A stretch of DNA of 62,751 bases, from positions 1 to 62,751 of the forward strand of contig JAULBX010025353.1 of NCBI GenBank assembly GCA_032358255.1, written 5' to 3'. This stretch comes from Heterotrichella gracilis. Taxonomy: Eukaryota; Sar; Xanthophyceae; Tribonematales; Xanthonemataceae. Shown one piece after another: positions 2,434 through 62,751 of this stretch. The notes beneath the pieces are model-generated. The model did not search any database and was not told the origin of the DNA. It saw nothing but the letters and a program-made list of their open reading frames with translations. The stretch's first letter is position 1; each line of letters begins with the position of its first letter. The position numbers and the translations under genes are program-made.

Positions 2434-5400
2434 ATGCCGAAAAAGAAGAAGCAGGGCGCACGAAGGATCAATCGCAGGCCTCCCGCCACCGTCACCCACC
2501 TGCCACAGGTGCGTCAAACCCTAGGACAAACCCTGGGACGAAATCCCTATGTAAGGGTCTACTCACTCACTAAGGGAACCAGGGTTCTGAGTAAGGTGCC
2601 AGTGCGTGCCCCGCCCAAGGCCGAAAAACCCTGCATACCCATATAACCCTGCGCAAGGGCTTCAAAGGGGCACTGGTTAGGGTTGCTGGTGCATGCCCGA
2701 CGGGTGTCGCAAACCCGAAATCTTGAAACCCCTATTTTCTATACCCTATTCCTTTATTTCAGTGCCACTTTTTTAAGTAGCCCTAAATAAACCCTAAACC
2801 CTGAATCAGCTTGGTTCAGAGGTTTAGGAGGCAGCCTGCACATGCACTAGCCCTAAACTCTTAATCCTATAACCCTAAACCCTGAAGTCCAATGTCTGTT
2901 CGCAGTTTGACTCCGATGGCGAAGGAGGCAGCCTGCACATCGGGGGTGTGGTGGTGCGCCTAAATCCTCCGCCAGGGTTTGCCTACACACACGCAGCAGC
3001 CAGGCGGCAGGTGCGTGTTACCCTAGGTTATTGCATGTGGAGCATTAAACCCCAGCGTAGGGTTTGTGGTGGTCCGGTTGAACCCCCTGCCAGGGTTTGC
3101 ATATACACACAGCGCGCCCAGGCGGCAGGTGTGCTAACCCTAACCCAGGGTACTTTGCCATGTGCATCCTAGTACAGGTGGCCCCTACTGCAGGGTGTTG
3201 ATTGCACGCATGTTGTCGCCAGGCCAGGATGCGGGAAACCCTACAATAGGGTGGGGTGTTGTTGTACATGGACCCTATCGTAGGGTGAACCCGCTGTGTG
3301 TGGCACTCCTGCAGGCGCGTGGAGGTGGCAGGATGGGGGCTGGCACTCAGAGCAGGTATGTGTGGAAGGGGGGGCTGGGAGGAAGGGGGGGGGGATGACA
3401 CCCCATGCGATGCCACATGTTGAATTGCATCATGTAACAATGCATATGATGTAACCTGTGGCGCTGAATGCCAACATGTATCGCCCTATGTGATGTGCAC
3501 ATGTGACACCTAATGCCAGCACGTTGACCCCTTCTGGAACCTTCTGTGCGCATCTTTTTTCATTTTCTTGTTCACTCCCTCCCCATCCCTGCAGCGACCC
3601 CCATCCCGGCACCACCAGCGACGACCCCACTGGGGATGACGACGAGGTGCTCAGGGATTATATGGAGAATGTGGCGGCAGAGGATTCTGAGGGGGTGCGG
3701 GGAACAAAACCCTACACCCTACACCTCTGTTTGTGTAAAACCACCCCAAAACCCTACCAGCTGGTGCCGAAAACCCACATGGCTGTGCCGAAAACCCTAA
3801 TCGGCGGGCCAGGTTGCGCCCAAAATCCTAGCGTGTGGCACAGGCCTCGCCCACTGAGGCTGCCATGCTGACCTCCCAACCCTACCACTTGCCCAAAACC
3901 CTGAACACTGCGCCCTAAGTCTTAAAAGCTGCGCCCTAAACCCTGCCATGTGGCGCAGGCCTCTCCCAGCGAGGCTGCAGCCCTGGCCGCCTTCGCGCGC
4001 CACCACATCCAAGGGGGGGAAATGAACGTGCTGATGGAGGGCATGGGGCTCGACACCCCCTCCTGCTCCGACTCTGATACCTCCTCTGATAGCGAGGGGG
4101 AGGGGAGGAGCAGTGGCAGCAGCAGTGGAGAGGGGGAGTCACAGGGTGCGTGCCAACCCTTAATGGGGTGAATTTTTTGCTAGAAACCATTTTGTGCATG
4201 CAAGGAGGAGTCGCAGGGTGCGTGCCGGTCGACCCTGAACCCTACAGTACGTGAAGCCTTCCCTAGGATTCATGCTGCTGTGTGGACGCGGCACACAGGA
4301 AGGGGAAAAGCTCGTCGTCTTACGTCTCTATTCTACATAATTGGCAATTTCTCAGGAGGCGCATCAAAAATATATTCAGGATAGACTCTGTTTTGGCCCC
4401 TGCTCTTGCCCTTTAGGCATGACCATGCCTCGCCTGACCAACCCTTTTCCCTGCTTTCAATTGCGCACAGGTTCAGGGGGGGACAGGGATTGCGAGCCAG
4501 GGGAGGGAAGGGGGGCAGGAGGGGAAGTCAGGCTCGACAGGGATGGGTTTGACGCCAGGCTGTCGCTTGCGCAGCGCTACCCCGTCACGCTCAACGCCAG
4601 AGGCCATGCAAAAGGTGCGCGTACCCTGAACCTTAGCCCCTTAAATCCTAAACCGCGATATCGTGTGGGCCACGCAGTAGCTCTGATGGGAATCTCTGGT
4701 CATTGCGCAATTCCTGCACATGCTGTCCCCGTGCCCTTCAACACAGGGTTGTACTGAAGTGTGGGATCCATTACAAGATGTGTGAACGCTTCACAGCATT
4801 CTTCAAGAGCGTTCTTACACACAGAAGGTTTCCATGGTCGTGTGGTGTGTATCCAGGTCATTGAGTTGCATGTGCATAAAATCAGGTACGAGACATATGG
4901 TGTTCTACTAGTGGTGATAGGACACACCCATCCTCTCCCACAACCCACACCATCGTCCCCACCAGCCCTACCAACCACCACTCCCATGCCGGGGCCTCAC
5001 ATCCCGCATTACCCATAACCCAAACCCCCACAACCACCACTCCGCCTTGCAGAGGAGCGCTCACGACGGGTGAAACACAAGGCTGCAGTGAAGGGCGCCA
5101 AGGGGGGGCAATTACTGCCAGGGGAGAAAAAAAAGATGCGCAAGGAGGGGATAGCTGCGAAGCGGGCGGCGAGGGCTGCGGGGGGCGGGGGTGCGGACGT
5201 GCAGTGGTTGGATGCGGCGCTTCGGGGGGTGGTGGAGGAGGGCCTTGATGTGCATGTGAGTAGGGTTTTGGGAAGGGGTGGGGTGGGGTTTGCAAAGGGT
5301 TTGGTGGGGATAGGGTGCCTGTGCGTTTCAGAAGTGGCTAGGGTTTGGGGATTTGCAGTGGGTGGATGCGGCGCTAAGGGGGGTGTTGGAGGAGGCCCTG

Positions 5401-7924
5401 GATGTGCATGTAAGTAGGGTTTTGGGCAGGGGCTGTGCAGGATTGTGGTATGGTACTGGGTGGGTTGAGTGCATGTGAGGGCTTGGCTAGGGTTTTGTTG
5501 GCGTGTGGGTGCATGTGGCGCCGGGGTGCATCGAAACCCTACCCTCGGCACTTGCTGGGGGTTATCCAATGATACCTGTAGATTGCTGCCACAGCCTCAA
5601 CCCCCACCCCCACTTACCCTCAGGCCTTCCCCCCGATGTCCAAGGCCCGATCACTGGCCCTGGTGCAGCGCATGGCGGGATGCTATGGACTCAAGGCCAC
5701 ACTGCAAGGGGGGCCCAAGAAGAGGATCGTGGTGGTGCGGTTGGTTGGGTTGTGGTCTACAGTATGTGTTCGGAATTGACCTCGGATTTGACACCTCCTA
5801 AGATTCAAAGGAGCTGGCACACCTGATTTCATACCCCTGTGTGGGTTCCCTGTGGTATTTTTTGATAATCTCGTCCCAATATTGCGTGTTGGCTTCAATC
5901 CATGTCCCTAACCTGGAGCCGCTGCACTGTCAGCTCAAACCCTAAACCAATACCCTAAATCAATACCCTGACCCCTCCAGGAGCGCCCCACCCCTGCCAC
6001 CTGTCTGCCTGAGGGTGGTGCACAGAAGCTTCATGTGAACCCTATCCAAAACCCTAAACACACCCTAATTCTTCAGGTGCGCCCTACCCCCGCCACCTGT
6101 CTTCCCCAGGGCGACGCGCTGTCCAGACTGGAGGGGATTATGTCATCAGAGGCTGAGCTGCAGCGCAAGGGGGAGGTGGCACAAAGGGGGGGTGGGCAAG
6201 GTGCGTGGGTGTGTGGACGGGGAGTTGAGTGAGGTGAGGTGATGATTTCCCTGCCGGTGGGGATGAAAGGGCATGCACATGGCTCGCTGATATGGGCTAG
6301 GTGGCCAGCATGCAGGAGGTGGCGGATATGAAGGGGCAGGTGCCGAGGTGGGTGGGGTTTACAGCCAAATACATCGCATGGGTTGCTGATATATATGGGC
6401 TGGGTAGCCCAGCATCCGCCATTCCACCTGCCATGTGTTCCTGAAAAACATGGGTATCCTGCACGCCACCGCCAACCCTACTCCCACCCACCACCACCCC
6501 CTCCCCTCCCACACGCAGGCAGCCGCCTCCTACATCGCCCTCCCGCGCCCCCCACCGGCGCCACCCCCCGCTACGCCACCCGCACCCTGGCCGCCACCTT
6601 TGTGTCAAGTGGGGTGGTGGAGCCAGACTCCTATATTCCCCTTGCCCACCCCACACCCCACCACCGGGGGGCGCACATGGCTGCGGGGGGGCTATCAGAT
6701 GGGTCGGAGGATGCTGACGTGGCAGATAGCGATTTGGTGAATGCTGACTTGGCAGACTATGATTTGGCGGATGGTGGTGTGGCGGGTGGTGCTTTTGTGG
6801 CGCTGGCCGATTCGGCAGATGGTGGCAATTTGGTGGATGGGGAGGTGGAGGGTGGGGTGTATGCTGCGCTTGCTGGTTGGGTGGATCGGGGTGATGCGGT
6901 TCTGGCTGGTGCGGCGGATGGTGCTGGAGTGGACGGTGGTGCTGATGTGGCGCTTGGCGATGTGGCAGATGAGGAGGCCGAGTTTGATGACCTGGCAGAG
7001 GAAGGGTTCCATGTTGGGCTAGGGTTTGGTGGTGGCGGCACCAGGTAGGGGGGTGGGGTGGGGGGTGGGGGTGGATAGATGTGTGTGGCTTGTATCAATT
7101 AAGGAATTCAGTCCCATGAGTAGATGCTTTGAATGTGGATGTGCGCGGCTATGCATGTTGACTTGCACTTGCTGGGCTTGTAGATTGGGTAAGATTTGGT
7201 GCAACAGCATGCAAGCCCCTCAGCCCCTCACAGCTGCCTGCCCATGCCGCTCCCTCCCATGCATCCATTTACCCCTTGCATTCCACGCGCTGGGTGAAAG
7301 CATTATGAAAGGTAAAAACAAACGGCTTTTGGTCACCACTGGGCTGTTCACCGCCGGTACTCTATCATTCTGTTTTGGACGGATCGAATAAGCCTTGAGT
7401 AACCCCCGCAAGCCCTTGCCCAACCCCCACCAACCCACGTCCTGACCACCCCCCACCCACCCGCACCCTGCAGGCCTTCCCCACCCCTACCACCACCACC
7501 ACCACGCGCCCCACCCCCTGGCGCCATCACCAACCCCGGTCGCCTGCTGGGCCTGGGCCTAGCCCTTGGCGTGGGGAGCGCGGTGTTTGAATATGAAGGG
7601 CAAGTCACCACGACCTCCACCGCCCCCCCTATCGGCACGGAGAACAACATTTTCCACGCGGCGCCCCGCCATCCCCAGCGGCGCCGGTCCAAAAAGCACA
7701 ATCCCCACGGCAGCGACGCGGCGCAATCCCCAGCTGGGGATGCGACCCGACCGCCGCCCGGGTTTGGGGATTTTGAGCGCCACACCGCAGGGTTTGGGTC
7801 CCGGATGCTGTCCAAGTGGGGATTTGAAGCGGGGCGGGGATTGGGGCCCTCGGGAGAGGGGCGCGCTGAGCCGCTGCCTGCGGTGCAGAGGCCCAAAAAG
7901 CTGGGACTGGGGGCCGATGTGTGA
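2434..7924 (+). CDS. R3H and G-patch domain RNA-processing protein (SQS1-like)
   Basis: Eleven exons join in phase to 688 residues: 2434-2508, 2906-3010, 3315-3355, 3595-3694, 3959-4145, 4471-4614, 5053-5255, 5624-5734, 6077-6200, 6519-7044, 7474-7924. The protein starts with a Lys-rich MPKKKK stretch. It then has an acidic Ser-rich part, a basic ERSRR..KHKAA segment, and an R3H-like domain at about residues 270-335 with FPPMSK and GGPKKRIVVV. A long acidic Asp/Ala/Gly repeat region follows. The last roughly 50 residues are a G-patch (GFGSRMLSKWGF, GRGLG, GRAEP). The order R3H then G-patch matches yeast Sqs1/Pfa1 and plant relatives, whose G-patch stimulates DEAH helicases (Prp43 type) in splicing and ribosome assembly. 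A nuclear or nucleolar role is therefore likely. The Arg and His of the R3H signature are replaced by Leu and Gln. The least certain boundaries are exon 3, placed by phase alone, and the end of exon 8 at 5734. Confidence 0.88.
3065..3128 (+). repeat. Echo of R3H exon 2 (3' part)
   Basis: A diverged copy of the end of exon 2 (2906-3010) lies in the intron that follows it. It reproduces the VVRLNP..PGFAYTH..RRQ coding block and is again followed by a GT donor. The copy is open in the matching frame, but no clear acceptor precedes it, so it is probably not used. Confidence 0.85.
5356..5427 (+). repeat. Echo of R3H exon 7, possible alternative exon
   Basis: This copies the last 54 bases of exon 7 (5202-5255) plus the donor and about 15 following intron bases. 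It is still open in frame, reading WVDAALRGVLEEALDVH against WLDAALRGVVEEGLDVH in the exon. It is flanked by TTGCAG and GTAAGT, so 5359-5409 (51 bases, phase 0) could be spliced in without breaking the frame. Confidence 0.85.
5979..6027 (+). repeat. Echo of R3H exon 9 (5' part)
   Basis: A partial copy of the start of the exon at 6077, including its CAG acceptor and the RPTPATCLP coding block, lies about 100 bases upstream of the real exon. AACCCTAAA-type sequence separates the two. Confidence 0.85.
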
Positions 7925-7927
7925 GCA

Positions 7928-11462: not shown

Positions 11463-12120
11463 GGCTCCAGGCCTGACTGGTGTCATCACGGCGCATGCGT
11501 TTGGGACTTAAGGGTTAGGGTCCANNNNNNNNNNNNNNNNNNNNNNNNNNNNNNNNNNNNNNNNNNNNNNNNNNNNNNNNNNNNNNNNNNNNNNNNNNNN
11601 NNNNNNNNNNNNNNNNNNNNNNNNAGCCCGAATGACATCGCCATGGCGCATGCGTTTAGGGTTCAGGGTTTATATTTTAGGGGTCAGGCCTGACTGGTGT
11701 CACCATGGCGCATGCGTTTGGGACTTAGGGGTTAGCGTCCAAGCCCGAATGACATCGCCATGGCGCATGCGTTTAGGGTTCAGGGTTTATATTTTAGGGG
11801 TCAGGCCTGACTGGTGTCCTCATGGCGCATGCGTCTAGGATAAAGGGGTTAGGGTCCAAGCCCGAATGACATCGGCATGGCGCATGCATTTAGGGTTCAA
11901 ATTATATTTTAGGGGTCAGGCCTGACTGGTGTCATCATGGCGCATGCGATTAGGATTAAGGGGTTAGGGTCCAAGCCCGAATGATATCGCCATGGCGCAT
12001 GCGTTTAGGGTTCAGGGTTTATATTTTAAGGTCAGGCCTGACTGGTGTCATCATGGCGCCTGCGTCTAGGATTTAGGGGTTATGGTCCAATCTTGAATGA
12101 CATCGCCATGGCCATGCGCT
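11463..12120. repeat. Telomere-like minisatellite, about 117-119 bp period
   Basis: Five or more higher-order units are visible, each made of two half-units. One half contains GGCCTGACTGGTGTC and the other AAGCCCGAATGACATCG. Each half is followed by CATGGCGCATGCG and then TTTAGGG- or TTAGGG-type sequence. The array is interrupted by the assembly gap, so its true length is unknown. The final unit at about 12090-12120 has degenerated. Confidence 0.92.
11525..11624. other. Assembly gap of 100 N
   Basis: Exactly 100 N bases, the usual placeholder for a gap of unknown size. It lies inside the minisatellite array, so the array itself probably caused the break. Confidence 0.99.
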
Positions 12121-14711: not shown

Positions 14712-17700
14712 TCACTCCTCGTCGTCGCTCTTGTACTTGTATGACTGCACCTCGTGCACATTAATGAGCCCCCCCGTGTAGCTGCCGCGCTTCTTCTTGG
14801 TCTTCTCGTGACGGAAGTCCTTGCCGCGCACCTGGGGTGGGGGAATGGGGTGGACATGAGGAGGGGGTGGTGGTGATACGAGGAGGCGGTGGTGGTGATA
14901 TGAGGAGGCGGTGGTATGACAGGTTGGGGGTATTGCGAGGGGTGAAGAGTGGAGTGGTGGTTGATGAGCCACCAAGAGGAACTGCTGCGCTTCTTCTTGG
15001 CCCTCTCGTGACAGAAGTCCTTGCCGCGCACCTAGGGGGGGGGTGGATGTATGAGGGGGGGCGGGTGAGTGACGGGGTGGTGGTAAGAGGTGTGCACGGT
15101 CAGCCTCATATTGATGCATGTGGCCCAACAAAAACCCTTGTCTACAGCTCTACACCCCACGAAACCTAGCACCAAATTCCATACCAGTGCCTCACCTGCC
15201 CCAGCACCTGCTGCGCCTTGAAGCCCCAGCCCAAAGGTGACCTCAGAGCTGTTGCTCCATGCACACCGCTAACCCAACCAATCAAACCTCTACCCGCGGG
15301 CAGCAGTACCCATTCGACCCAAATTCCCCTCGTTTAAAACCCTAGACCACCCTTAAAAATGGCTCACCTGCCCCAGCACTTGCTGCGCCTTGAAGCCCCA
15401 GCCCGCCTGCCCAAAGGTGGCCTCATAGCTGTTGTTCCATGCGCCCTTCTTGTCCAACCACTCCTCTGCCTTTACCCGCTGGAAGGCCTTAGCAGCTGTG
15501 CCCTTGCGGCCGCTGCCATTGGCCTCCTCCCCGCCTGCTTCCCCTTCCGCGTTTTCTTGGTTGTCTCCCCCGGTGGCTGGGGCGGCGGGGGGTGGGGGTG
15601 GTCCAGGAAGGGCCACCTGTGGGGCAGTGGGGGTGTGAGGGGTTAGGGTTTAGGGTTAGGGAGGCCTGGCGTGGTGCTTGCGTATGGTGCATGCGGATTG
15701 TGGAGGGTTTGGAGATCAGGGTTTAGGGTATGCGAGGCCTGGCGTGGTGCATGCGGATGGTGTAGGGTTTAGAATTCGGGGTTTGGGAGGCCTGTCGCTG
15801 TGCATGCACCTAGTGCAGGATTTATGGTTCTGTGGCCCCGCACGTGTAGGGTCCCAAAAGATCCTTGGACAAAGCAGCAGGATACATTGACGCCATAGGG
15901 AGAATAACTTGACCAGGTGCACTTTAAACCCCTTGTATTACAACATTCTAGGGTAATACATTACCCACCTCAGCTGGCGCAGCCTCCTCCCCTCCTGCTC
16001 CCGCATCCTCCCCCTTGCCCTTCTTCCCCTTCTTCTTCTTTTTCTTCTCCTCCCCTTGATCGGCTGAGGGCACAGGCTCAGTTACCACTGGGGCAGGGGC
16101 AGGGGCTGCCTCCTCCTTGCCCTTCCCCTTCTTCTTCTTCTTAGACTTTTCCTCCCCTTGACTGGTGGAGGGCAGGGGCTCGATTGCTACCGGGGCAGGT
16201 GCGGGGGGGTCAGCTTTCTTGCCCTTCTTGCTTTTCTTCGTCTTCTCACCTGATGCGCTGCCCTGCGGGAGGACAAAGAGAGTAGGGCTCATCATTACCC
16301 TGGGGAATTGGCATGTGGCAGTGCGCATACCCTGGCGCAAAATTTCCATTTTATTTATCGTCATTGTTGCATTCGTTCCCAGCTTTGGATGTCCAGCAGC
16401 GCTCTGAGAAGGTGGGTTTGTCAAAAGTCATACAATCGCCAGGGTTTCACAACCGCATGCGTAGGGCTTTGTGCAGGGTACTAGGGTTGTATTCTGACTC
16501 ACATTTGCCACAGCAGGCTCCGCCACCGCAACAGGGGCATCCACCACCTCAGGAGCAGCATCTACACCCCCCTTCTTCGATTTCTTTCCCTTTTTCCCCT
16601 TGCTAGCATCCCCGTTGGCTGGTGCCGGGGGCTCAACAGCAGGCGCGCTGGGATTCGATAGGTTGGCAGCGCCAGCCTGCGTAAAAAGGGCGCAAGGTTA
16701 GGTCAGCAGGGAGATGACGCCTTGGTGGTAATTGCACATCCTTGGAAAACCCTTGGCTAGGAATTTGCACTGCTGGCACAGGATCCAGGGTACAGCGGGA
16801 AATGAACCCTCGGCACCAGAAAACCCTAAAACCCTTCTCTGCAATCGCCGCCAGTGATCCATCAGGCTGGCTGCATGGTTAGGTCGCATGTAACTAAGCC
16901 AACTAGGCTCACCACTAGGCAATACATCTGCACGTGTTGACCAGGGGTAGTATCTTACATATGGCATATGTAATCAGTGTAACATGCGCTTACAGCGTAT
17001 ATAGATTTAGTGTTCTATGCCCATGCATGTGCACTATCGAACATGGGCATGTTACACAAATTATATATCCGCTGATTCAATGCATGCCCCTCCGCACGTC
17101 CTGTCAATCCGGAAGGATTTATGGTTTAGGATTAAGCTTAGGCCGCCTCACAGTCGGATGCCAACCCCACCTCATCGCCAGCCGCAGCAGCTGCCTTCTT
17201 GCCCTTCTTTTTCTCTACCTTTTCCCCCTTGGCGGGCACCGCAGCGGGCACCGCGGGTGGCGCTACCACCTTCTCCTCCTTGCCTGCTTTCTTCCCCTCC
17301 TTTTTCCCCTTCTTTTTCTCTCCCTTGGCAGCTGCTGCGGGCTCTACAGGTGGCGGTGCGGCCGCTTCCTCCTTGCCCGCTTTCTTCCCCTCCTTTTTGC
17401 TCTTTTTCTTCACCTGGACCTCCTCCTGTGCGAATGGGGAGCAAGGGCGGGGTAAGGGTAGGTGCAAAACCCCAGGTCCGGGGTGGCGGGGGGGTCCACT
17501 GCCAAAGGGGCGATGCTGCAGGGCAGCATGACTTGCTAGAAGGCTTGCCAAGTGAACCTACGGCTCCTGCATCCCCCTCCCCACATCCCCACATGGCTTC
17601 TAGGCTACTTAGGGTTCCAATAGAGGGACTGGACCTCCTACCATTCGTGTGGGGGTGCAGGGGTTGGGTGCTGTGGGCTGGGACAGTAGGTGCAAGCCCT

Positions 17701-19496: not shown

Positions 19497-22400
19497 ATGT
19501 CGTTCCAAGGCAAGCCCGTCTCCAAGTGGAGCGTGGGCGATGTGGTGGCCTGGCTGGATTCCCAGGAGCTGTCGCACGTAGCCCCCGCATTCCAGTCAAA
19601 TGGTATCGGAGGAGAGGATTTGTTGGACCTTTCTGACCAGGATATGGTGTCTGAGCTGGGCTTGACCAAGCTCCAGGTGAAGAAGATCAAGCGCGAGATC
19701 GGGGAGCTGACGGGCGGTGCCCCGGCTGCGGTGGGTGGCGGTGGGGGTCGGATCTGGGGGGATGGTGGGGGATGGAGCGTTTGGGCAGGGTGGGGGGGCG
19801 GGGGGGCGGGAATGGGGGCGGTGGAACGGGGGTCACCAGGTCGCCCCATCGGAGATAGGCGCCCGCACGTGCCACGCCTTTTCTAGCTTTCACCCACCAC
19901 GCCCCCCGCGTCGCCTCCATCGCCGCCTGTCTAGACACCACAAAGCACTCGATCACGTCACAGGACGCCCTAGGGAAACGCTACATCGCCATCTGGTTGG
20001 CCCCATGTCGGTTGATGTTAACTGCAGTGGGTGTAGAGTTTCGCCTCAGGCTAGTCATCAACATGCCGTGCGAAGTGGCCAGTCAGCTCAAACCGCGCGC
20101 TTTTGCTGGCTTGCACATACGTCTCCTGAGCTCGAGTAGTCGATGGCTATGCCAGGGGAAGGCTTCGCATAGGTGCTCACTCTTGGAGCCTTGTCCATGT
20201 TCCAAAACCCTTGTGCTCTGTTCCTTGTCCTGGTTAGGGTTTTAGGATAGGGTTTGGAAACTGCCGCTGCGCTGTGATAATCTAGCCACTTAGTGGTAGA
20301 CCCTTGGGGTGTACTTTTGTTGGGCTCTCAACAACAGAGTGCCACAGACAAAACCGAATACTACACCCCACGTCAGCCATGCCCCGCCATGAAATTCTCC
20401 CCTTTCTCCTGACGCTATCCTTTCCCTCCCCTCCCCCGATGGCAGGTGGCCGCCCCCCCACCCCAGCACCAGGCGCCACCCCAGGCAGCACCCCAGCAGC
20501 CCTCGGTGAGCCCCCAAAACCCTGCCAGAAACCCTACCAGAGACCCTGACATAACCCTATGTTTCTGCGCTTGGCGAGCGCCCAAAACCCTACTAAGGAG
20601 ATAAACGTAGGGTTTAGGGAGTCTTAACACCGTGCCTAGCCAGTGCAGGAGCATGGGTGAGTGTGCTACCATACCTGCACCAACCGGCCAGGTAGAATAT
20701 GGGGTGTTGATACCAAAAATAGGACCTTTATGGTTTAAAGTATTTCACCCCCTGGTATCTACCCTAGAACCCCATGTGTTATTGCGTCCAAGCTGCGGTT
20801 GCCCATCTTGGGCGGTGAACCCTCATGGTGCTAAGCTTGCTGTCACAACCTAAACCCTAATGAAACCCTAAAGGCGTGTGTCAGTAGATCCCGGTGCCAT
20901 TGGGGTTGCCAGAGGGTGGAAGAGTATGCCTCTTAACTGATACAAGCCCGTGTTAGTGTATAAAAAAAACCATTCCACTAGGTCATCATTTACCCCTCGC
21001 GGCCCTTGCCCCACCCCAAAAAATGGGCTGGACACCATTCCAACCTCCCTTGTCTACCCCCACCCCCATCCTCACTTGCACAGGCGCCCACCATGGACGC
21101 TGGTCAGGCGGCAGCCATGGCGGCCCAACAGGCGCAGGCGGCAGCACAGCAAGCGGCTGCGGCAACCGCACAGCAGGTGAGATACCCTAAACCTTGAACT
21201 CTAAAACCCAACAATAGCATAACCGGACAGCAGGTGGGTATCCTGACAGCTTGGACCCTAAACCCTAAGTGCTCACCCTCAGGGTTTGTAAATGACATCA
21301 GGGGTTTGTTCTCCTGTCTCCCCCTCTCTCACCCTATCTGTCCCTCACAATAGCGCTCACCCTTGGTAAACCCTTAAACCCTTACCCCCCCGCAGGCCCA
21401 TGCCCATCCATTGCGCGCGCTAAACCCTACACCTTCAACCCATCCCAAACCCCAAACCCTCCGCAGGTCCAGGTCCAGCCATTGCCTGCCCTAAACCATA
21501 AACCCTAAGCCCCAAACCCTAAACCCCCCGGCAGGTCCAGGCCCAGCAAGCCGCAGCCATTTGTGTGCCCTCAACCTTAAACCCAACCTAAACCCTAAAC
21601 CTACTTTAAATCCTCCGCAGGTCCAGGCCCAGCAAGCGGCAGCCAACGCGCAGCGCGCTGCAGGCATCAACCAGGAGATCCAGCACATCCAGGGCGAGTT
21701 GCAGCAGGTATGAAAACCCTAAACCCTAGACTAGGGTTTCTGTCATCACATTGATAATCAACCAGGAGATCCAGCACATCCAGGAAGCTGCAGCAGGTAT
21801 GAAGCCGTGGGGAAGCCATAGAAACCTAGGTTAGGGTATAGCTCCAATAAGGTTCGACCGGGAGGTCCAGCACATCCAGGAGGAGATGCAACAGGTACGA
21901 AAGCTCTAAACCCTAGGCTAGGGTTTGTGTCATCACAATTGTAATCATCCAGGAAATCCAGTGCATGCATGGGGAGTTGCTGCCGGTATGATGCATGGGG
22001 AAGCCCTAAACCCTAGGCTAGGATTTTTTCAGTAATAGTCATCCAGGAATTAAGCAGATGGAAGCGGAGATGCAGCAGGTATAGCCCATGAGGAAACACT
22101 AGCATCCAAGGCCAGGGTTCCATATTATTCTAGTGCAAATACCACCCTGCTGGTTGTGGTTGTGGTTGTGGTTTTCTTTTGCTTTGCGTCCCCGTAAGTC
22201 CAGTCCCAGGGCGCCCAAGCTCCTATCCAACCCAGGCCGCTGTCCGCCTCTCCCCAGATATTTGACGTTAATTTCGCTCTTATTCTGCATTGTTGCATCC
22301 CTGCAGATCCAGTCCCAGGGCGCCCGCTATCCCCAGGCCGCCCAGCTGCTGTCCCAGGCGGAGCAGGCCTGCAAGGAGGCGCTGGGGGCACTCAGAACCG

Positions 22401-45447: not shown

Positions 45448-48400
45448 ATGGCAGCCATGCGCGTTGCGGTGCTGGTGCTCGCCGCCGTGGGTTTGGCACA
45501 GGCAGCGCCTTCACTGGTGCGACCCTGCACAGCCCTCACGTCATGAGCAAGGCCCTTAGGGTTTAGGGTCTGAGATTTCTGTGCGTGCGGACACTGCCTT
45601 GCCATGCAGCGGCATGTGCAGTGACCACTTTTCCAGGCTTTCAGGGTCTAAACCAAAATGTTGGCATGCAGAAGCCCCCTCGCCCACCACCATCCCCCCG
45701 CCCACCATCGCCACCCCCCCGCCCACCACCACCACCCCCCAGCCCACCCCCACCCGCATACCTCAAGCTGAGTCAGGTGCCCACCACACCCACCGCTGAC
45801 GGCAAGGTGCACATCATCAGCAGGTATGCTGCTACTAGATAAAGTAAACAAGTAAAATTCTAGACATACATTATCAGCAGATATGCTGCTACAGGCTTGA
45901 AAATGTTATGACTGTAAGCATTCACAAACAGGAAAGCAAGACCACGCAGGGAACTAACAAATATGATAACGACAGTTCCAGCATGTATGAGCACGCCCAC
46001 AAACCTCCATACCCTATAGGGTTATAACCCCAACCACGGTGCAGGTACGACCAGTGGTTTGCCAATGGCATCCAGTCCCTCAACCCCTTCCTCAATGCCA
46101 CTGACCTGGCGGGGGCACCCATGGGTGACACATGTGACACCAAGGCGCCATATGACTGGTGTGCAAGCACCCCCTCCATCTTCTCAGGTGAGATGGAAAC
46201 CCTGCGCCCCAAACCCTAAACCCTAAACCTTTGTACGACCGGTGTGCTACCACCCCCTCCATCTACTCGGGTGTAATGGGAACATTGCATCCTAAACCCT
46301 AAACCAAGTATCCTAAACCTACACCCTAATCTTCGACAGCTTATAAATGATGTGCAAACGTGCCTGCCCCATCTACTCGGGTGTGATGGAAACCCTGCGC
46401 CCAAAACCCTAAACCCAGGAACCATGCAAATGGTGCATAACCACCCTTCCACCCAGCACGATGGAAACCCTACCGCCAACCCCTAACCCCAGACACCATA
46501 GGAATGGTAGGCAAGCGCGCCTGCCAATTTTACTCCAATAGGATGGAAACCCTTCACCGCAAGGTAGGGTTCACGCATCAAATCCCTAAAACCTAAACTC
46601 CGATGAGGTGCGATTGTGCATGGGACCGGGCCCCAACCAGGCTGTGGCAAGCTGTGGCTATAACTCACATAGTGCGTGTGGCTTTGTGCAGGCTTGGACA
46701 TCTACAGCGTTGACCCTGTCGATGGCGTGCTGTCCATGGTCGGCATCACCGATCGCGGCCCTAACCAGGTAGGTTTTAGGGTTCAAGATTTTGGGTTTAT
46801 GGTGTCAGAAGTTACAGTGCTGTGGAGATATTCTCCTCCTCACCTAATCCTACCTCTTTACAATCTCATTCCGTTACTTGCCAGTGCACCCGCCACTTTG
46901 GACTACAATCCTTCTCATTTGGTTTGGGTTCCAAGGCAACATCCCCATAGCGTTTGCGCATTGCATGGCTGGCATGTCATGGCAGCCTCTGCAAGCCATC
47001 GCAAGGCACACAAAGACTGAGACTGGCACAACCAACACCCTCAATTGGAGCTTTGCATTGGAATCTTGGAGCACCTCATCTGGAGAACCTCACCTTGACA
47101 ACCGCACCTCAGGAATCTCGTCGGCATATGCGGAGTTATGGAACATCTAATATATCTATGTATTGCAGGGTTGCGGTGACGTAAATGACAACCTTGGCAA
47201 GCCAGGATGGCCCACCAAGGCCGAGTTCAACCTGTCGGCTGAGGGACTGGCATCAGGTAGGGTTTAAGTTTAAGGTTTAGGGTTAAGCTGAAATCCGGTT
47301 ACAATGTGTCCGCTAACAAGGCTGGCAGGAGGTAGGGAGGAGTCATTTGGTGGACCCGATTGGTGCATTCAGCAGCAAAACATCTGCTAAACAGAGTATG
47401 TACACCTCGGTCAGTGTCTTTCAAGGAAGTACCTCAACAATAACATACCCTCTCCATTTATGCACGTGTGCAGGCACTAGCTGCGCAGATTCAACTTCAT
47501 TTGCCTCAGCAATGGCTTGACTATTGATTGATAAATCATTATTCATCGTAAAGTACTTAATTATTGTTGGTTTCCTGGTTTCAGGCAGCAACGGCTTCCC
47601 GTTGCCCCGTTTTGCCCCTGCCATCTCTCAGCTTAAGGTAGACCTCAACTTCAACAAGGTCCGCGCAGGTAAAAAAAGAAAGGAGAACAGAAATTACAAA
47701 AAATACCACATAGGTGAAATGAATAAACAACGTTGGTACCATGCAGCCTGGTCTTGAACTGGGCCTCGATTTGCCCCTGCTATCTCCCAAGGCGCCAGGT
47801 CTTGATGTTGACACCGACCTCAACAATAACGAGGTCCTCGCAGGTGGATGGAGAAGGGAGCGATACGGGTGAATATGTAATACAGTGGGAAATTCATAGA
47901 CCAGTGAACCACCTGCATCCAATGTCTTTGTATGTTGCTGAGCCTCAGGGCTATTTGTCCATCACTGCGATAGATTGAAAGGCAAAAGGGAGAAAATCTA
48001 CTCAATATTTATAACGCTGGCCAACCCTTTTCTAGCAGTGATTGCCAGAAAACGAAGAAGAACAGTGGTTGTCAGTGGTGACATTTAGTGACATTGCCAA
48101 TGCCACCTGGCAACTTGTACACACCAATATACAGCAGTGCAGCATTGGCACCGCACATCTAAATGCACTTCTCCTGCATGCAGAGAAATCGTGCCCCCTC
48201 AAGGGGTCCAATGGCAAGCCCATCACAGGCCTGCCCAACGTTGCCACCCCCTTTGGCTACAGCACCACCGACCCATTTGATGCCCCAGCCTACGGCAACG
48301 CCTGCAGGGCGCCGTACATTGGCTACAGCGTTGATGGTACGTCTATCCAGAAACCCTGGAGGTTGACCATTGAACCCTAAACCCTACAGTAGGGTGGTCC

Positions 48401-52766: not shown

Positions 52767-52783
52767 TTTTCGTGTAAAGGTGC

Positions 52784-53550: not shown

Positions 53551-56500
53551 ATGGCTGGCACCCCCCCACCCCCCCCTAGCCCTGGACCAATGACACGCTC
53601 AGCAGCACGCAAGCAGGCTTCAGCCACGCCAGAAACCCTTAAGTCCCCGACAGAAACCCTAAACTCTGACCTGGGGTCGGCGCCGCGCCAGTTCAGCCTA
53701 TCCCAGGTCAGCGCCCATGCCTGATTTGCTTGAGCCCTAGGGCTTCATTTTTGCAGTCGAGCTGGGCCATGTGGGCCATTTCTGCATTGTTCTACTGGGG
53801 CCTGTTTTATTGCGGGATCTTGAAATCTCTCGAGGTCACGGGCACCCTGGGATTATTTCTTGCTGCAGATCGTGTCTCTGATAGCGACGGATGTGTATGG
53901 GCCTGCGTTGTTTCCGCGGTGTCTGCATTTCAAACCCTGTTCGTGTTGAAACCCCTGATTTGTCCTATCCCAGGTCGCTGCGCATGACAGCCCTGGGGAT
54001 TGCTGGGTGATAGTGCGGGGCAAGGTGTACAACGTGACCAAGTGGGTGCCCAGGCATCCAGGGGGCAACATGATTTATATCAAGGCGGGGAGGGACTGCA
54101 GCCAGCTGTTTGACTCATACCACCCCTTGAGCGCAAGGTGAGGAGAGGGCGGCAACAGAACCCTAAAAACCCTAAATCTCTTGGCATTTTTTCTGCAGAA
54201 GCATAACTCATACCACCCCTTAATGCCAGGCGAGGAAAGGGAAAGCAGAGCTGAGCCCCAAATCCTGGAAACCCCAGACCATGTTGCACTAATCTCAGCC
54301 CATGCCTAGAGGCTGTGCGTTGCTGTTGCCTTCCCTGCTTCGGATCTGAAACTGCTTCCTGTAGGGGTTCACATGGCCCATCAGCCCCACGCACTTGGAT
54401 CCTTTCAGTTACCCTAATTTGAGCCCCAAAACCCTCCTGCAGACAGGTGCTGGCCAAGTTCCACATCGGCGATGTGGCCCCAGGGAGGAAACAGTGACAA
54501 CAACCCCCTTTCTCAAAACCTTAACCAGCGCCCCAAAACCCTTGCAGGAAGGTGCTGGCCAAGTTCTACATCGGCGACGTGGCCCCAGGGGAGGAAACAG
54601 TGACCTACGGGGATGACCTGGCGCCAGGGGGGTTCTACGACGTGGTGAAAACCAGGGTGGAGGAGTACTTCAGGAGCAACAAGCTCTCTCCCCGTTTCTC
54701 CTCTTCGCTGTACCTCAAGGCGGGGGTTATCCTCGCCTGCCTGGCGGCGTCCTACTACTGCACCTTCTTTGGATGCACTACCGTATGGGTGGGTGCTATG
54801 CATCAGCATGTACCTGGGAAAGTGCATGTACATATGCGCTGCGTTCTCAGCTGCGCGGTTTGCTTCTGCGCCTTCTTTGGATGCGCACCCACTCGGCGGC
54901 GCATTTTGCTTGCATACGCATGCATTGGGTATGTGCTCAGCTGTCTCACAGTCGCATGGGTGGGTGGCGCAGTGCATGGCCACGGTTGCATCTGCATGTG
55001 CTTTTGACACACACACACACACACGCACACACACATACCACAGCACCCCACTCACCCCACACCCCACCACCCGCAGGGCGCGGCAGCCGCAGCCGTCCTC
55101 CTAGGGCTGTGCGCAGGCCAAGTGGGTGTGTCCATCCAGCACGACGCCAACCACGGGGCATTCTCCCACAACCCCTGGATCTGCTACTTTATGGGGCTGA
55201 CCCTGGACATGGTGGGGGCATCCTCCTTCATGTGGAAGCAGCAGCACGTGGTAAGGGGTTTGTAGGGTTTTTGCTAGGGTTCCACCATCCTGCTTGCAAG
55301 CCACACATTACACTCACAATCTTGTGCTTCACCACATGCTCGTCACCCCAATACACCCCCCCCACCCCCCACCCCCCCACAGGTGGGCCACCACGCCTAC
55401 ACCAACCTGCACGACAGCGACCCAGACATACGCGTGTCGGACCCCGACGTGCGCCGCGTGACATCCCACCAGCCCCACCGCCCCTACCAATCCAACCAGC
55501 ACATCTACCTCGCCTGCCTCTACGGCCTCCTGGCCATCAAATCCATAATTTTGGACGATTTCTCGGCTCTGGCGGGTGGAATCATCGGTCCCGTGAAGCT
55601 GGCGCCGCAGACCCCGGGAGAGGCGGTGGCGTTCTGGGGATTCAAGATTGCGTACGGGGCGGTGTTCATGGGGGCGCCGCTGGCGTGGGGGCGGTGGGGG
55701 GTGGGGGGCACGGTGACGCTGTGGGTGTTGGCGCACCTGGTGACTGGCTGGTTCCTGGCATTCATGTTCCAGGTGAGGGGGCAGAAACCCTATTTGAAAC
55801 CCTAAGGAAAACCCCAGCAATGGGCGGTGTTGATGGGGGCGCCGCTGGCCTGGGGGCGTGGGGGTGGCGGTGGCGCTGTGGGTGTTGGCGCACCTCTTAA
55901 TTGACTGGGTTCTGGCATTCGTGTTTCAGATGAAGGGCAAAACCCCTAAGACAGATACCTAGGAAAATAATAATAGGCTAGTTATTGGCACGCGTTTTGC
56001 TTGGTGAGCGGTGGGACGGAACTCTTCAAGTACCCTAGGGTGGTGGAATTCTAGTGCGATTCCCCAAACTCCAACCCTCAACGTTGCTCTCCTTTCCAGG
56101 TGGCCCACGTGACCGGTGACGTGGCATTCCTCAAGGCAGATGCCAATGGGCGGGTGGCGGCGGGGTGGGCGGCGGCGCAGGTTGCCACCACCGCCGATTT
56201 CTGCCACGGCTCCTGGTTCTGGACCCACCTGTCGGGGGGGCTCAACTACCAGGTGGGAAGACGTTGTCATTTTTAAGTAATTACTAAATGAAGAAGAAAC
56301 CATGTTGAGTTAATAGTGAGGGTTATTTAGGCGCTGCATGCACCCTGATCCCTATGTGGTAAACCCTAAACCTGAAGAGTGTTGGTGAGTGGTTGGTGAA
56401 AGTGCACTTTGGTACTGGGTGGTGTGTGGGGTTGCGTGTGCTGCTGCTACAGCTAGCTTTTGTCATTGGCTGTGGTTCTGTATGCACCTGTGGGGGGCTC

Positions 56501-57078
56501 AACTACCAGGTGGAAAAAGCGCTGCATGCACCCTAATTCCCAAACCCTACACCCTAACAGAGTTAGTTAATGGTTGGCGAAAGTGCACAGGTTGCCTCCT
56601 CTTGAGGGTAGTTTTAAACATTCACTCATCACCTCTCTATTTCCTCCCCACAGGCTGTGCACCACTTGTTCCCCGGGATCGCCCACACCCACTACCCCGC
56701 CCTGGCACCCATCGTGCTGCAGACCGCCAAGGAGTTTGGGGTGCCATACACAGTCTACCCCACGGTGAGACTTCATGCGCCTTTTCCACCCTCTTGTCAA
56801 CCACTGTAGCTACATTGCATGCATGCCTTTCGCCCTTGTCAAATGCTCTTCAACCACTTTGTATGTCGCCTCAAACCCTAATTTACCCTCAGACTGACTC
56901 AGACTGACTGCGTGGGCCCAAACGCAAAGTATTCACTCCCAATCGTTTTACCTGGGACTGACACGCTTTTGGCGGGGATTTGCAGTTCTGGGCAGCCCTT
57001 GCGGCACACTTCAAGCACCTGCGCGCAATGGGCAACCCGGGGGGAAACCTAGTGCCGTCCCTGGCCACCGTCGGGTGA
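53551..57078 (+). CDS. Cytochrome b5-fusion front-end fatty-acid desaturase
   Basis: Eight exons give 493 residues in phase: 53551-53706, 53974-54137, 54548-54788, 55077-55250, 55383-55772, 56100-56252, 56654-56764, 56986-57078. The N-terminal cytochrome b5 domain has the heme motif RHPGGN and DCSQLFDSYHP. The desaturase domain carries three histidine boxes: QHDANHG, VGHHAYTN (preceded by WKQQH) and AVHHLFP with the typical front-end Gln at the exon junction. Hydrophobic segments flank them. Such enzymes sit in the ER or plastid envelope and insert a double bond between an existing one and the carboxyl end, making long-chain PUFA. Box sequences resemble algal delta-5/delta-4 enzymes more than delta-6, but regiospecificity cannot be read from sequence. 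Electrons come through the fused b5. Length and all motifs are complete. Confidence 0.94.
54200..54500 (+). repeat. Echoes in desaturase intron 2
   Basis: The end of exon 2 (ACTCATACCACCCCTT.A.GC.AGG.GAGG) recurs at about 54206-54238. The start of exon 3 with an acceptor-like AG (AGGTGCTGGCCAAGTTC.ACATCGGCGA.GTGGCCCCAGGG) recurs at about 54443-54498, 100 bases before the real exon. One intron thus holds an echo from each neighbouring exon. Confidence 0.93.
55002..55033. repeat. (AC)n microsatellite
   Basis: A nearly perfect AC dinucleotide run in desaturase intron 3. Confidence 0.95.
55820..55935 (+). repeat. Echo of desaturase exon 5 end
   Basis: Repeats GCGGTGTTGATGGGGGCGCC plus GCTGGC.TGGGGGCG, then GCGCTGTGGGTGTTGGCGCACCT, GACTGG and TTCTGGCATTC.TGTT.CAG from the end of exon 5 with an internal deletion. 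It is followed by a decayed donor region (GATGAGGG). It begins right after AACCCTAAGGAAAACCCC. Confidence 0.92.
56480..56520 (+). repeat. Echo of desaturase exon 6 end
   Basis: CACCTGT.GGGGGGCTCAACTACCAGGTGG repeats the last bases and donor of exon 6 (56226-56257), about 250 bases into the following intron. Confidence 0.9.
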
Positions 57079-58826: not shown

Positions 58827-61800
58827 TCAAATCGGCGGCAGCACATTGGCTAGCAGGGATTCATCATTCCAAGTATTCGCCGCCATGTACCACGCGGGGA
58901 AGTCCGGAATATTGACCCTGAACCTGCAGCTGGTGCGGTAATAGCACCCCCCCAGGTTCTCGCAGTTGTCGACATTGATGCCGCATTTGGCCACCCCGCA
59001 CCCGAAATCCACCGCCCCCACCCATAGCATTGCGGCAAATGCGTTGAATGCAGGGTCGAGGGGGTTGTCGGTGGATGGGTGGGCGGTGAAGCGGTACTGC
59101 TTGTCGATAGTGGCCCCCTCGAGCCTGGGGAGGGGGAAGATGGGATTCAGCACAACAAGATTAGACCAGAAACCCTAAACCCTAAAGATAATGAGATTCA
59201 AGAGCTGAATAATATGTTTGCGTCACTTTTTGAATGCACCAGGTTAACTGCAAACTCTTGATTAGGGTTTACTGTTAACGTGAGGAAACATCAGGGATTG
59301 AAAGCAGGATTGTAATTGGAAGTTGGAACTGGAATTGGATTTTTAAAGTGCATTGGAATTTAACCTGTAACTAGAATTGCAATTAAGGCACCCTAACCCT
59401 GCACACACACGCACCAGCCACCACCCGGTGCTCCACCCCTCCACAGGAGCTGCCCTCCCCCTCTTCCCTACCCACCACACACACACACACACACACACAT
59501 CCCCCAACACCACCACCACACCTCCCACACGCACCAGTTTTCAAACAGCGACGAGCAGGACACCTGGCGGTCGGTGGTCACGATGTATGACTCCACCCCA
59601 AAGGGTGCGGTCATTGAGCTATCCGAATCCCCGTTGAGGGCGCATGTGGCCTTGCCCCCGTTGGTGTCTAACCAGGTTTGCGCTCTGGCTGCCAGGGCTT
59701 CGCTCCATGCTAGGGGAGGCGCCCTGAGTGTGTGTGGGGGGGAGGGTTGTTAATACTACATGCCATGGTACATGTGTTGATGTGCTTTCGGTTATGTTGT
59801 GGTATGAACGGTCCTGGTGGTGGTGGTGGTGGTGGTGCAGGGGCCAGATTCATGCGTGGGGGGATGGGGGTTGGGGGGAGAGGGTGCCTATCCAGGTCTG
59901 CACTTCTGCTGCCAGGGCTTTGCTCCATGCTAGGGGGGGCGCCCTGGCTGGCGGCGGCAGGGGTGTTAATGCTACAGACCTGATATTTTGTAATAATGAT
60001 GGATAAGCCCGTCGCACCCGCGATACTGAGGGTACGCATCAGCAGAGCGTGCATACCCCAGGGGCATGAATCGCACTGGGGGGTGGCAAGGATGTGGAAC
60101 ACATTCTAGTCACAATGCAGGGTTTATGTAGGGTTGCTTCATAGGGTTCATTCCAAACTTTGGGTTTTCCGTTGGGTTATCCTAGGGTTCCTGTAGGGTC
60201 CACTTACTGGTGCTTTGCCCTCTGTGCATTGATGAAGCTGAACATGGCGGGAATGTCAGGACACAAAGAGGCACCTGCACCACAAAGTAGGGTATTGTTA
60301 GGGTCTAAATAATATGAAAATAAGTGCAGATATAAAACAACGCGACCCTCAAAAAGGTCGCGTTGAGGAGATTCTCAACTGGTAAGGAGATTCTCAACTG
60401 GTAAGGATCGCAACTATCTTGTGTGCACATGTTGCTCCCACATGCATGTGCAGTCAACGTGTGTATGCATGTGATGTAACATAATATATGTACATACATA
60501 CAATGCGAGTGTGTCACAGCGCGAATCCGCACACATGCGCCTATGCTTGCACCATTCACTTGGGGGTGGAACAGGTGGCGGCGGCGGGGAACCAGCGGCA
60601 CACATCCCCTCCCACATGCCTGCACAATGCACCCTGGTGTGCATCGAAACGCTTGTGAGTGGGTGTCAATATACACACATGCGCATACGCATGCGCCACT
60701 CACTTGGGGGCGGGGCGGGGGGGGGCGGGGGGGGCGGGGGAGCAAACCCGCTCCCCGGCACATACACATTCAGGGCCCACAGTGCGTCGGTGGCGGGGTA
60801 GTTGACATTCCCCTGGGGGGTGGCCAGCTGCTCGTTGCCTGCTGACTGGAATCGGCACACGATGATGCTCTTTTTTGCTGCCGGGCACATCCCCACCGCG
60901 CACCCCATGGTGGAGGTCGAGCGCCACACCACCTGCGGCAAGGGTTAGGGCTTAGGGCTTAGGGTCAAGGTGTATTGCTTCTCTGGTGCGGGGATGTGGG
61001 ATGACGGTGGTGGGGTGTGGGGTTTTGTAAGGGAACCATAATACAACGGCAAGTCCCTTAGTGAGCTGTACAGTACACCTACACCCAGGGTTTTGCAATG
61101 CCAGATGGTACCTACTACCAAGATACCTAGGGTTTCCAATCGTGGCCATGCCCTACCTGTGTGAAATGCCCTAGGGTTTCCAGCAGGTTTGTGTTGATGA
61201 TCCCCTGGGGATCCTTCTCAGGGGCCATATTGGTTGTGTAGGGGGTGTCAGTAAATTTCCAGTCCTTGATTTCGTTGTACCAGGCTTGCAGTGCCGCTGT
61301 GCAGTTGTTCAGCTCGCTCTGTGGAACAAGGGAAGGCAGGGGTGAGGGGGTGGGGAGGTTGGCGTGCATATAAAGACTGGAATCGTTGAATTGGATTAGG
61401 AGATTACTGTGAGAATGGTTGGTATAATTTGGAAATGCAGTATAATCAAATGCATTATGATATCATATATCATTATGATTATAATTGAATGCATTATGAT
61501 CCTGAACATGGACAGCACTGGTGAGGCATTTGATGGTTGATGGTTGGAGACGCAGGCGCTTGGCGAGTTGACGTTCACGCCTAAATTGACCATCCACACT
61601 TCACATCCATACTACACATCATCCCCGTCAACCCATCCCCTCTGGATGTCGGCCCCTTAAACCCTACACCCTTATAAACCCTAAGTCACTGTAAACCCTA
61701 ACCTTTGTCCCCTCTCACCACTACGATCTGTATGTTGGCCAGGCACTCACACTGCACGTCGCCATAAACCCTAAACCCTAACCTAAATAAACCCTAGACC

Positions 61801-62751
61801 CTTGCCCTCACCACTACGTTCTAGATGTTAGCCCCGCAAACCCTAGACCCTTCCCCACACCATTACGTTTCAGATGTTGGCCCAGTAAACCCTGTGAACC
61901 CTAGACCCTTCCACTCACCGGTATGTTCCCCTGGATGTTGGCCAGGGTCTCCCCCTGCTGCGCGTCGCCCGTCTCCATTTGCTGATGTATGCGTGCGCAC
62001 CCCTGCCCAGCCAGGTTGGAGGCCCAGGCCTGGGCTTGCTGGGTCAAAAAGGTGGAGATGGTCAACGGCTGCGCGCTGCGGGGTGGGTGGGTGGTGGGGT
62101 GTCAGCAGGGGGTGTGGGTGGAGGGAGGGGGCTGGGATGGTCAGCGGTTGTGGGGGTCGAGTGTGTGTGGTGGAGTGGGGGTGCGGGCTTGATTTGGGGT
62201 TATAAAGTTTGTTGGGCCGAGGGTGGTCTGCGTTCACCCGGAGCGGTGTGTGTGTGCAGGGTGCTGTAATGTAGGGTCAGGTTTTAGGGTTTATAGTGAG
62301 GCGCCCCAAAGCCAGATGTATGCAGCTGACTTTGATGTACGGATCAGGGTTTAGGGTTGTTTAGGGTTTAGGGTTTGTTGGGTGGCGCCACTGCCAACTT
62401 GTGCAGCTAGACTTGATGCAGCAACATCCTGGGCATTGCCCTAAGGTTTTTTACTCCCACCCATGACTATCCCGTAGGGTTCAAGGTACAGGGTTTTGGC
62501 ACGCACCCATGATTACCCCGTAGGGTATTGGCCAGATCCAAAACTGTATGGTAGTCAGAACAGCCCGATGCAGGCAGGGGGGGAACGGGTGGTGGTGGTG
62601 GTGTGGGTGGCTTTGGCGGTGGTGATGGGGGCTTGGGTGGTGGTGGTGCTGGTGGTGGTGGCCGTGGTGATGGTGGTGACGGGGGGAATGGTGGTGGTGG
62701 GGAGGGGGGAGGTGTGGGTGACGGTGGGCGAGGGGAGGGGGGGGGTGGTGT
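58827..62751 (-). CDS. Secreted two-CAP-domain protein, 5' end beyond the window
   Basis: Seven exons in phase, running off the right edge: 62751-62507 (partial), 62075-61919, 61318-61157, 60932-60704, 60274-60208, 59723-59535, 59124-58827, giving 448 residues in the window. It begins with a long PPPSPRPP-type stretch. The first CAP (SCP/PR-1) domain follows: DLANTLRGNHGAQPLTI, GCARIHQQ, GETLANI, HFTQVVWRSTSTMGCAVGMC and VCRFQS. A Pro-rich linker leads to a second CAP domain (FSFINAQRAKHQAPPLAWSE, AMLWVGAVDFGCGVAKC, ..CRFRVN). CAP proteins are secreted, disulphide-bonded and often bind sterols or lipids. The second domain lacks the His of the HxxQ motif, so its cavity site is probably altered. 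Likely a cell-wall or extracellular-matrix protein. The signal peptide would lie outside the window. Confidence 0.9.
59478..59499. repeat. (CA)n microsatellite
   Basis: About eleven CA units within the last intron of the CAP gene. Confidence 0.95.
59880..59960 (-). repeat. Echo of CAP-gene exon 6 start
   Basis: Repeats CCAGG.CTGC.CTTCTGCTGCCAGGGCTT plus TGCTCCATGCTAGGGG.GGCGCCCTG from the exon at 59723-59535 and its acceptor. It lies upstream of that exon in gene orientation. Confidence 0.92.
60363..60408. repeat. 21-bp tandem duplication
   Basis: GGAGATTCTCAACTGGTAAGG type unit present twice in a row inside a CAP-gene intron. No exon source identified. Confidence 0.9.
60545..60610 (-). repeat. 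Echo of CAP-gene exon 4 end
   Basis: Copies the end of the Pro-rich linker exon and its GTGAGT-type donor region (CACT.ACTTGGGGG.GG..C.GG, with GCGGGG and GGGGA.C). The flanking intron, with its GTGTGCAT and CATACAT words, is also repeated. It lies downstream of the exon in gene orientation. Confidence 0.75.
62455..62482 (-). repeat. Echo of CAP-gene first-exon end
   Basis: CACCCATGA.TA.CCCGTAGGGTT occurs here and in the real exon end at 62504-62527. The copy lies just inside the intron and keeps the donor. Confidence 0.85.

Follow-up and report, generated by a model that had tools for sequence, protein, structure and literature searches.

Copies of exon ends in adjoining introns on a contig of Heterotrichella gracilis

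Contig JAULBX010025353.1 of the Heterotrichella gracilis assembly GCA_032358255.1 raises the question of why its introns carry partial, decayed copies of the exons beside them. The window analysed here is this contig over 62,751 nucleotides of the forward strand, within an assembly of 68.5 Mb and 903 contigs. The original prediction, made from the letters of the window, held that introns of every multi-exon gene resolved contain such copies, that copies of exon 3' ends with the GT donor lie downstream and copies of 5' ends with the AG acceptor upstream, that they often form series decaying with distance, and that an ongoing local duplication process centred on splice junctions lengthens the introns. 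We found that these copies, which we call echoes, are real, direct, and sided, that duplication is concentrated on exon ends beyond what position-blind duplication would give, and that the copies look free of selection. Self-comparison was run on 240.7 kb in total, made up of 60 kb of the window and 19 further stretches. Exons and introns were called with a small gene finder of our own, trained on the window and 18 loci, and the resulting models are predictions made without RNA evidence.

Orientation, side, and junction preference of the copies

Repeats lying at most 500 bp apart were almost exclusively direct (162 direct and 3 inverted pairs), and a dinucleotide shuffle of the same 240.7 kb, one per piece, gave no local repeats in either orientation. 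A second count of local pairs gave 169 direct and 5 inverted. We compared 45-nt exon ends and starts with the adjoining intron, using other introns as controls. Of 129 exon 3' ends, 30 recurred in the downstream intron (3 of 1,032 in other introns), and of 133 exon 5' starts, 22 recurred in the upstream one (2 of 1,064). Wrong-side matches in the predicted models were at background (0 of 133 and 2 of 129), as were reverse-complement matches (0 of 129 and 1 of 133). The predicted excess of exon-intron matches and the rule of sides were thus both borne out. The two series named at the outset are also present, with four copies behind the donor at 21707 and four behind the donor at 46187, the last two of them weak. 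Identity falls along both, yet decay with distance is a tendency only, as the nearest copy beats the farthest at five of seven multi-copy junctions, at several of them barely.

The copies are widespread, although the claim for every multi-exon gene holds per gene and not per junction. All nine window models with at least three exons have at least one pair with an exonic copy (judged by eye, two-exon models not counted; for the model at 26240-27739 the partner copy lies just beyond the model's end), whereas copies were found at 48 of the 108 testable junction ends in the window and at 43 of 186 in the 18 other, random loci. The window is therefore richer in copies than the sample average, and some introns are unaffected. 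Twelve housekeeping loci (six CCT-chaperonin and six HSP70) were picked on multi-piece, exon-like Pfam matches before any copy search, and ten of them contributed introns (L029 gave no model and L035 has a single exon). Donor echoes occurred there in 8 of 50 cases and in 0 of 389 control comparisons; donor echoes are thus widespread at moderate frequency. Pairs with one exonic copy were found in 11 of the 19 gene-finding sources and have identities of 66-100%, so that an assembly artefact, such as collapsed reads, is an unlikely source of the echoes.

A random tandem duplication across a donor leaves its copy downstream, and one across an acceptor leaves it upstream. Sidedness alone therefore proves little, because this geometry already produces it. 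We found a preference for junctions on other grounds. A 40-nt window is most likely to have a copy nearby when it lies at the junction, with a probability of 0.27 for donors and 0.20 for acceptors, which drops to 0.07 and 0.09, respectively, at 20-40 nt into the intron (telomere-rich query windows were skipped and the target was unmasked; a masked version gave a similar profile). Junction zones exceeded the adjacent intronic zones in discordant pairs by 27:6, 25:7, and 12:4 (p = 0.00032, 0.0021, and 0.077), the last being the housekeeping loci. Repeat families touching a junction outnumbered intron-only families 24:3 in the window, 25:1 in the 18 loci, and 9:1 in the housekeeping loci, 58:5 in total; introns shorter than 60 nt and gene models with less than 300 coding nt were excluded from this count.

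Position-blind simulations with neutral substitution, small indels, and deletions left the intron interior about as rich in copies as the junction, or richer, and one of four settings showed a shallow dip just inside the junction. The simulated ratios of junction to intron-only families were 83:90 and 50:57, about 1:1, and rose to 132:58 with a five-fold and 147:33 with a fifteen-fold junction bias; telomere-like runs were masked in the observed and unmasked in the simulated sequence, which somewhat lowers the observed intron-only count, and the simulated rates are rough. As 58:5 was observed where position-blind duplication gives about 1:1, duplication is concentrated on exon ends, and the prediction is upheld as to a local, recurrent duplication process at exon ends.

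Anatomy, decay, and age of the copies

The pairs differ in how much of the distance between exon and copy is itself homologous. Among 89 pairs containing exon sequence, the homologous part amounts to at least 90% of the spacing in 17, 60-90% in another 17, and less than 60% in 55, and among the 26 pairs with at least 88% identity, one has at least 90% covered and 20 have less than 60%; telomere-like runs were masked in this search, which shortened some matches. Seven of the 89 pairs had no predicted junction and were left unclassed as to side. Plain head-to-tail units and spaced copies both occur, and in most the homology covers only part of the spacing. The 32 copies with at least 90% exonic identity extend over a median of 50 exonic and 17 intronic nt. 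The 26 nearest copies of that identity have median homologies of 53 exonic and 17 intronic nt; with extension limited to 70 nt, the intronic homology is at most 24 nt in 17 and at least 55 nt in 8 of them, and the gap is at most 10 bp in 4. The clearest young case is a 58-bp copy in locus L028 (54 exonic and 4 intronic nt), which is 98% identical, with one mismatch. Its flanks and 55-bp spacer are unrelated, and a genome search with this spacer, the sole one tested, matched only the spacer itself.

Spacers are partly associated with telomere-like sequence. Such bases make up a fraction of 0.109 of donor and 0.145 of acceptor spacers; in intron ends free of echoes, the fractions over the outer 60 nt are 0.046 and 0.076, although the two groups are not length-matched. 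In the window, a two-unit telomere-like 14-mer with at most one mismatch occurs 46 times, compared with 0.03 expected. The sequence lies mostly in sense orientation (7.1% versus 2.1% of intron bases), occupies 0.2-0.4% of exon bases and 1.3% of intergenic bases in each orientation, and peaks 10-40 nt inside both intron ends. Degenerate CCCTAAA-like (plant-type) repeats are abundant in introns, for example at 21489-21526, 36200-36230, and 41970-41997. The telomere-like sequence near acceptors may be partly branch-site-like, and the association of filler with telomeric repeats may also reflect selection of that kind.

The copies look neutral, because 13 of 15 gaps in them are not multiples of three and because their splice sites are retained about as often as identity alone predicts: of 26 donor copies, 22 still have GT (21.3 expected), and of 15 acceptor copies, 13 still have AG (12.4 expected). 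In 39 alignments, mismatches between exon and copy affect codon positions 1, 2, and 3 at 7.6, 6.4, and 15.2%, a pattern that fits a copy drifting evenly together with synonymous change in the exon. Among 13 duplicated pairs within one exon (six arrays, with L006 supplying nine pairs), by comparison, 12 are offset by a multiple of three. Selection on frame would be expected if the same event hit exons, and it seems that the same kind of event occurs inside exons and is filtered by selection. At 24170-24214 and again at 29331-29375, a 45-bp in-frame copy of the next exon's start is conserved with its flanks in both copies of a tandem gene pair; it resembles an echo already recruited as a real exon, or one that could be.

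The tandem paralogues also bear on age. At two of four compared junctions, a copy matches its own exon better than the paralogous exon does (0.90 versus 0.79 and 0.96 versus 0.91) and so postdates that gene duplication. Together with the young copy in L028, this speaks for an ongoing process, as had been proposed, although the other two junctions do not. Within the series at 21707, two of the four copies (e1a and e1c) have the exon as their nearest match among the sequences of their own gene.

Predicted introns have a median length of 315.5 bp (n = 148). Those with echoes are longer (median 453 versus 293 nt, n = 41 and 152), in agreement with the proposal that the process lengthens introns, but longer introns also offer more room for matches. 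Intron gain through tandem duplication of AGGT-containing segments, with which the pattern had been linked, did not stand. We compared the donor and acceptor surroundings of the same intron in register and found 0 of 144 introns with at least 38 of 80 matches (control 0 of 2,859), while at 34 matches the counts were 1 of 144 and 20 of 2,859, with means of 23.75 and 24.00. The AGGT model is rejected here on this test; the copies sit in pre-existing introns, and the process lengthens these and was not seen making new ones.

Features and genes of the window

The exons and echoes located in the window are listed in the table.

Table. Exons with copied ends and their echoes in the window.
Feature	Coordinates	Strand	Details
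Exon of tandem-pair gene copy 1, 3' end copied downstream	21621..21707	+	gene model, series alignment
Donor echo 1 of exon ending 21707	21757..21803	+	identity 0.96
Donor echo 2 of exon ending 21707	21854..21900	+	identity 0.83
Donor echo 3 of exon ending 21707	21944..21990	+	identity 0.81
Donor echo 4 of exon ending 21707	22039..22082	+	identity 0.77
Donor echo of exon 22307-22406	22454..22528	+	offset 84
Acceptor echo of exon 23160-23320, plus intron part	22808..23052	+	offset 201
Donor echo of exon 23160-23320	23475..23526	+	0.90, offset 206; another copy 23636-23713
Head-to-tail 104-bp copies of 3' end and donor of exon 24279-24401	24459..24738	+	93-96%
Donor echo of exon 28697-28857 (paralogous gene copy)	28945..29021	+	
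Donor echo of exon 29441-29563	29619..29725	+	
Alpha-galactosidase exon 1	38191..38354	+	
Donor echo of alpha-galactosidase exon 1	38417..38467	+	offset 98
Alpha-galactosidase exon 6	41038..41171	+	
Two copies of alpha-galactosidase exon 6 3' part with donor	41282..41592	+	period 195
Copied 3' part of exon ending 46187	46151..46187	+	
Donor echo 1 of exon ending 46187	46234..46278	+	identity 0.82
Donor echo 2 of exon ending 46187	46342..46388	+	identity 0.76
Weak donor echo 3 of exon ending 46187	46417..46451	+	identity 0.69
Weak donor echo 4 of exon ending 46187	46491..46526	+	identity 0.72
Acceptor echo upstream of desaturase exon 54548-54788	54423..54498	+	90.9%, frameshifted
Donor echo of desaturase exon 55383-55772	55822..55948	+	
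Donor echo of desaturase exon 56100-56252	56473..56516	+	matching intron part 56519-56588
Donor echo of exon 5053-5255 (G-patch gene)	5346..5432	+	
Donor echo of exon 15368-15616 (SRP40_C gene)	15188..15303	-	
Acceptor echo of exon 14712-14831	14961..15043	-	
Acceptor echo of exon 59535-59723 (CAP-domain gene)	59883..59976	-	
Donor echo of exon 60679-60932	60530..60589	-	

The alpha-galactosidase gene, as assembled here, has nine exons at 38191-43143 and encodes 469 aa. Among the best 120 of 6,801 matches, themselves drawn from a capped set of candidates, the best named ones are from Volvox, Edaphochlamys, Haematococcus, Astrephomene, and Chlamydomonas (61-65% identity). These matches point to DNA of a volvocine-type green alga. 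The gene finder recovered five of the nine exons exactly and three with one wrong end, missed one, and added two false exons; it had been seeded with alpha-galactosidase and desaturase exons, so recovery of these is not an independent test. Part of the first of the two copies of exon 6 was called an exon. Echoes are thus a systematic source of false exons for gene finders, as seen in this gene and in locus L025.

Five of seven further predicted proteins match a Pfam family (G-patch, SAM, fatty-acid desaturase, SRP40_C, and CAP), and a functional link between the genes of the window is not evident. SAM-domain frames at 19497-19886 and 26240-26473 are closely similar, and each precedes one copy of the tandem gene pair; the finder split that of the first copy into a separate single-exon gene. 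Within SRP40_C exons, 16007-16246 and 17191-17411 contain in-frame coding duplications with offsets of 102 and 93 bp, which are possibly exon-internal survivors of the process that makes the echoes. Outside any convincing gene, 11468-12121 holds a 117-bp tandem array (4.3 copies at 11625-12118) with TTTAGGG-like sequence.

In the other material, satellite-like arrays of about 125 bp at 3204-4628 and 7414-8323 of L014, a stretch with few predicted genes, supply many of the intergenic repeat pairs. Locus L019 (GC 0.40) was excluded from gene finding; it and L024 may be non-algal, judged by GC and long frames, and neither contributes introns. Uninterrupted, near full-length HSP70 and tRNA-synt_2 frames occur on contigs C331, C72, C442, C111, and C68, most of them at least 200 kb long, which suggests that the assembly includes bacterial contigs.

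Possible origin and comparison with known systems

The best explanation, to which we give about an even chance, is that short direct duplications recur at exon ends, often with filler, and are filtered by splicing. Starting from the observed direct orientation, side-specificity, junction preference, neutral decay, and recurrence at the same junction, we infer an order of events and a biochemical route. Each echo would be a short direct duplication of an exon end with its splice site, the homology ranging from tens of bp to about 120 bp. The mutational process behind it would prefer exon ends, and source and copy would often be parted by unrelated or telomere-repeat-like filler. If the outer splice site were used after the event, the displaced old junction would become intron, escape selection, and decay. 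Later events would restart from the live exon, yielding a series that tends to age with distance while the intron lengthens. The likeliest route would be that transcribed genes suffer staggered breaks or paired nicks close to their splice junctions and that the ends are filled in and end-joined, with telomerase-like repeats as a frequent filler.

Several results weigh against this explanation. Intron-side homology is kept and significant in 18 of 39 echoes, and the 17 of 89 pairs homologous over at least 90% of their spacing mean that plain tandem duplication also happens. A telomere-like motif is present in 25 of 48 spacers and also in 98 of 338 echo-free ends (not length-matched). At the exons ending at 21707 and 22406, no copy matches its own exon better than the paralogous exon does, and for some copies the exon of the paralogue is an equally good or better match than their own; in the series at 21707, two copies (e1b and e1d) resemble e1a slightly more than they do the exon. 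For these reasons it is not proved that each copy was made from the live exon. In the housekeeping loci, the paired junction test is suggestive (12:4, p = 0.077) and the acceptor signal is weak in this small set (2 of 53 versus 2 of 416 controls). The finder sometimes calls an echo an exon, so that the models are usable but imperfect, and the data come from a single genome in which no duplication event was caught beside its empty site.

The same counts can be read in other ways. Machinery favouring exonic DNA in general, with selection leaving events that are in frame or spill over a splice site, would make the survivors look junction-centred. We consider this unlikely, though the likeliest of the alternatives. 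Ten exon-only repeat families exist (counted solely within 200 nt of introns), nearly all same-exon pairs are in frame, and the median homology of 53 exonic and 17 intronic nt could fit free segments of 60-70 nt required to include a splice site, an argument by reasoning and not by simulation. Exon-only families are nevertheless fewer than the 58 junction families, although by a rough estimate full tolerance would make in-frame survivors about half as many as junction families, which leaves 10 versus 58 indecisive, and a cause that would restrict copying to exonic DNA is not known to us. Targeting of junctions and a general exon preference with selection are inseparable here, and both differ from position-blind tandem duplication. 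The latter, in which the outer site wins by geometry and exon-containing pairs decay more slowly, is improbable: it yields the side-specificity without further assumptions, the slower decay is to be expected, and some echoes are head-to-tail with intron homology (the array behind 24401 and the 17 of 89 pairs), but the simulated ratios of about 1:1 disfavour it, with the caveats on masking and rates given above.

Two further accounts have little probability. Copies reverse-transcribed from fragments of pre-mRNA and pasted into nearby introns would explain the exon-end preference, and the telomere-like association could hint at a telomerase-type reverse transcriptase. Most donor copies, however, carry the unspliced GT, and in the local search nearly all copies are direct and within a few hundred bases, where pieces of RNA could insert in either orientation; we regard this origin as very improbable. 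Least credible is that the echoes are functional as alternative exons or as decoy or reserve splice sites kept by selection. GT and AG are mostly present, and the 45-bp in-frame copy may be a real exon in both tandem genes, but retention of the splice sites equals the neutral expectation and the frame is broken by most gaps.

If recurrent duplication at exon ends is the correct reading, steady junction copying would be a concrete and testable cause of long introns, the genome would have an unusual mutation spectrum tied to gene structure, and the copies could supply raw material for new exons. Introns of the core-Reinhardtinia are described as conspicuously long, with medians of 198-343 bp, an unknown advantage, and a probably ancient driver (PMC8226300). 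Splicing- or transcription-linked duplication of exon ends with filler might act as a ratchet that lengthens introns genome-wide and could explain the long volvocine introns, an idea whose chances we put slightly below even.

In titles and abstract openings of the open-access literature, we found no description of pervasive exon-end copies in introns, which is weak evidence of novelty. In the intron gain by tandem duplication described for a potato RdRp gene, the duplicated piece spans an intron-exon boundary (PMC4974935). Local direct duplication of exon sequence with splice sites is common to that case and ours, whereas the copies reported here decay inside existing introns and the register test was negative. 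Introners are described as repeated families, some with target duplications of 3-9 bp or with terminal inverted repeats (PMC9860276). They resemble the echoes as insertional intronic DNA with direct flanking duplication in some families; here, however, duplications are longer, from tens of bp up to about 120 bp, and the L028 spacer matched only itself in the search above. Neither of these two features of some introner families was seen, with a median exonic extent of 50 nt in 32 copies and 5 inverted against 169 direct pairs.

Repair of DNA breaks also offers parallels. Telomeric repeats inserted at repaired double-strand breaks likewise occupy non-terminal sites, and PMC2246262 gives an accompanying duplication of the flanks for 4.6% of the rodent and 16% of the primate loci; those found here are degenerate, are much denser in introns than in exons or intergenic sequence, and for the most part share one strand with respect to the gene. 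Small tandem duplications are reported to arise when CST and Pol alpha-primase fill in 3' overhangs (Schimmel et al. 2021, PMC8355091). Their direct, short-range orientation is also that of the pairs within 500 bp in our self-comparison, whereas the duplications described here concentrate on splice junctions, arise repeatedly at one junction, and frequently have filler between the copies.

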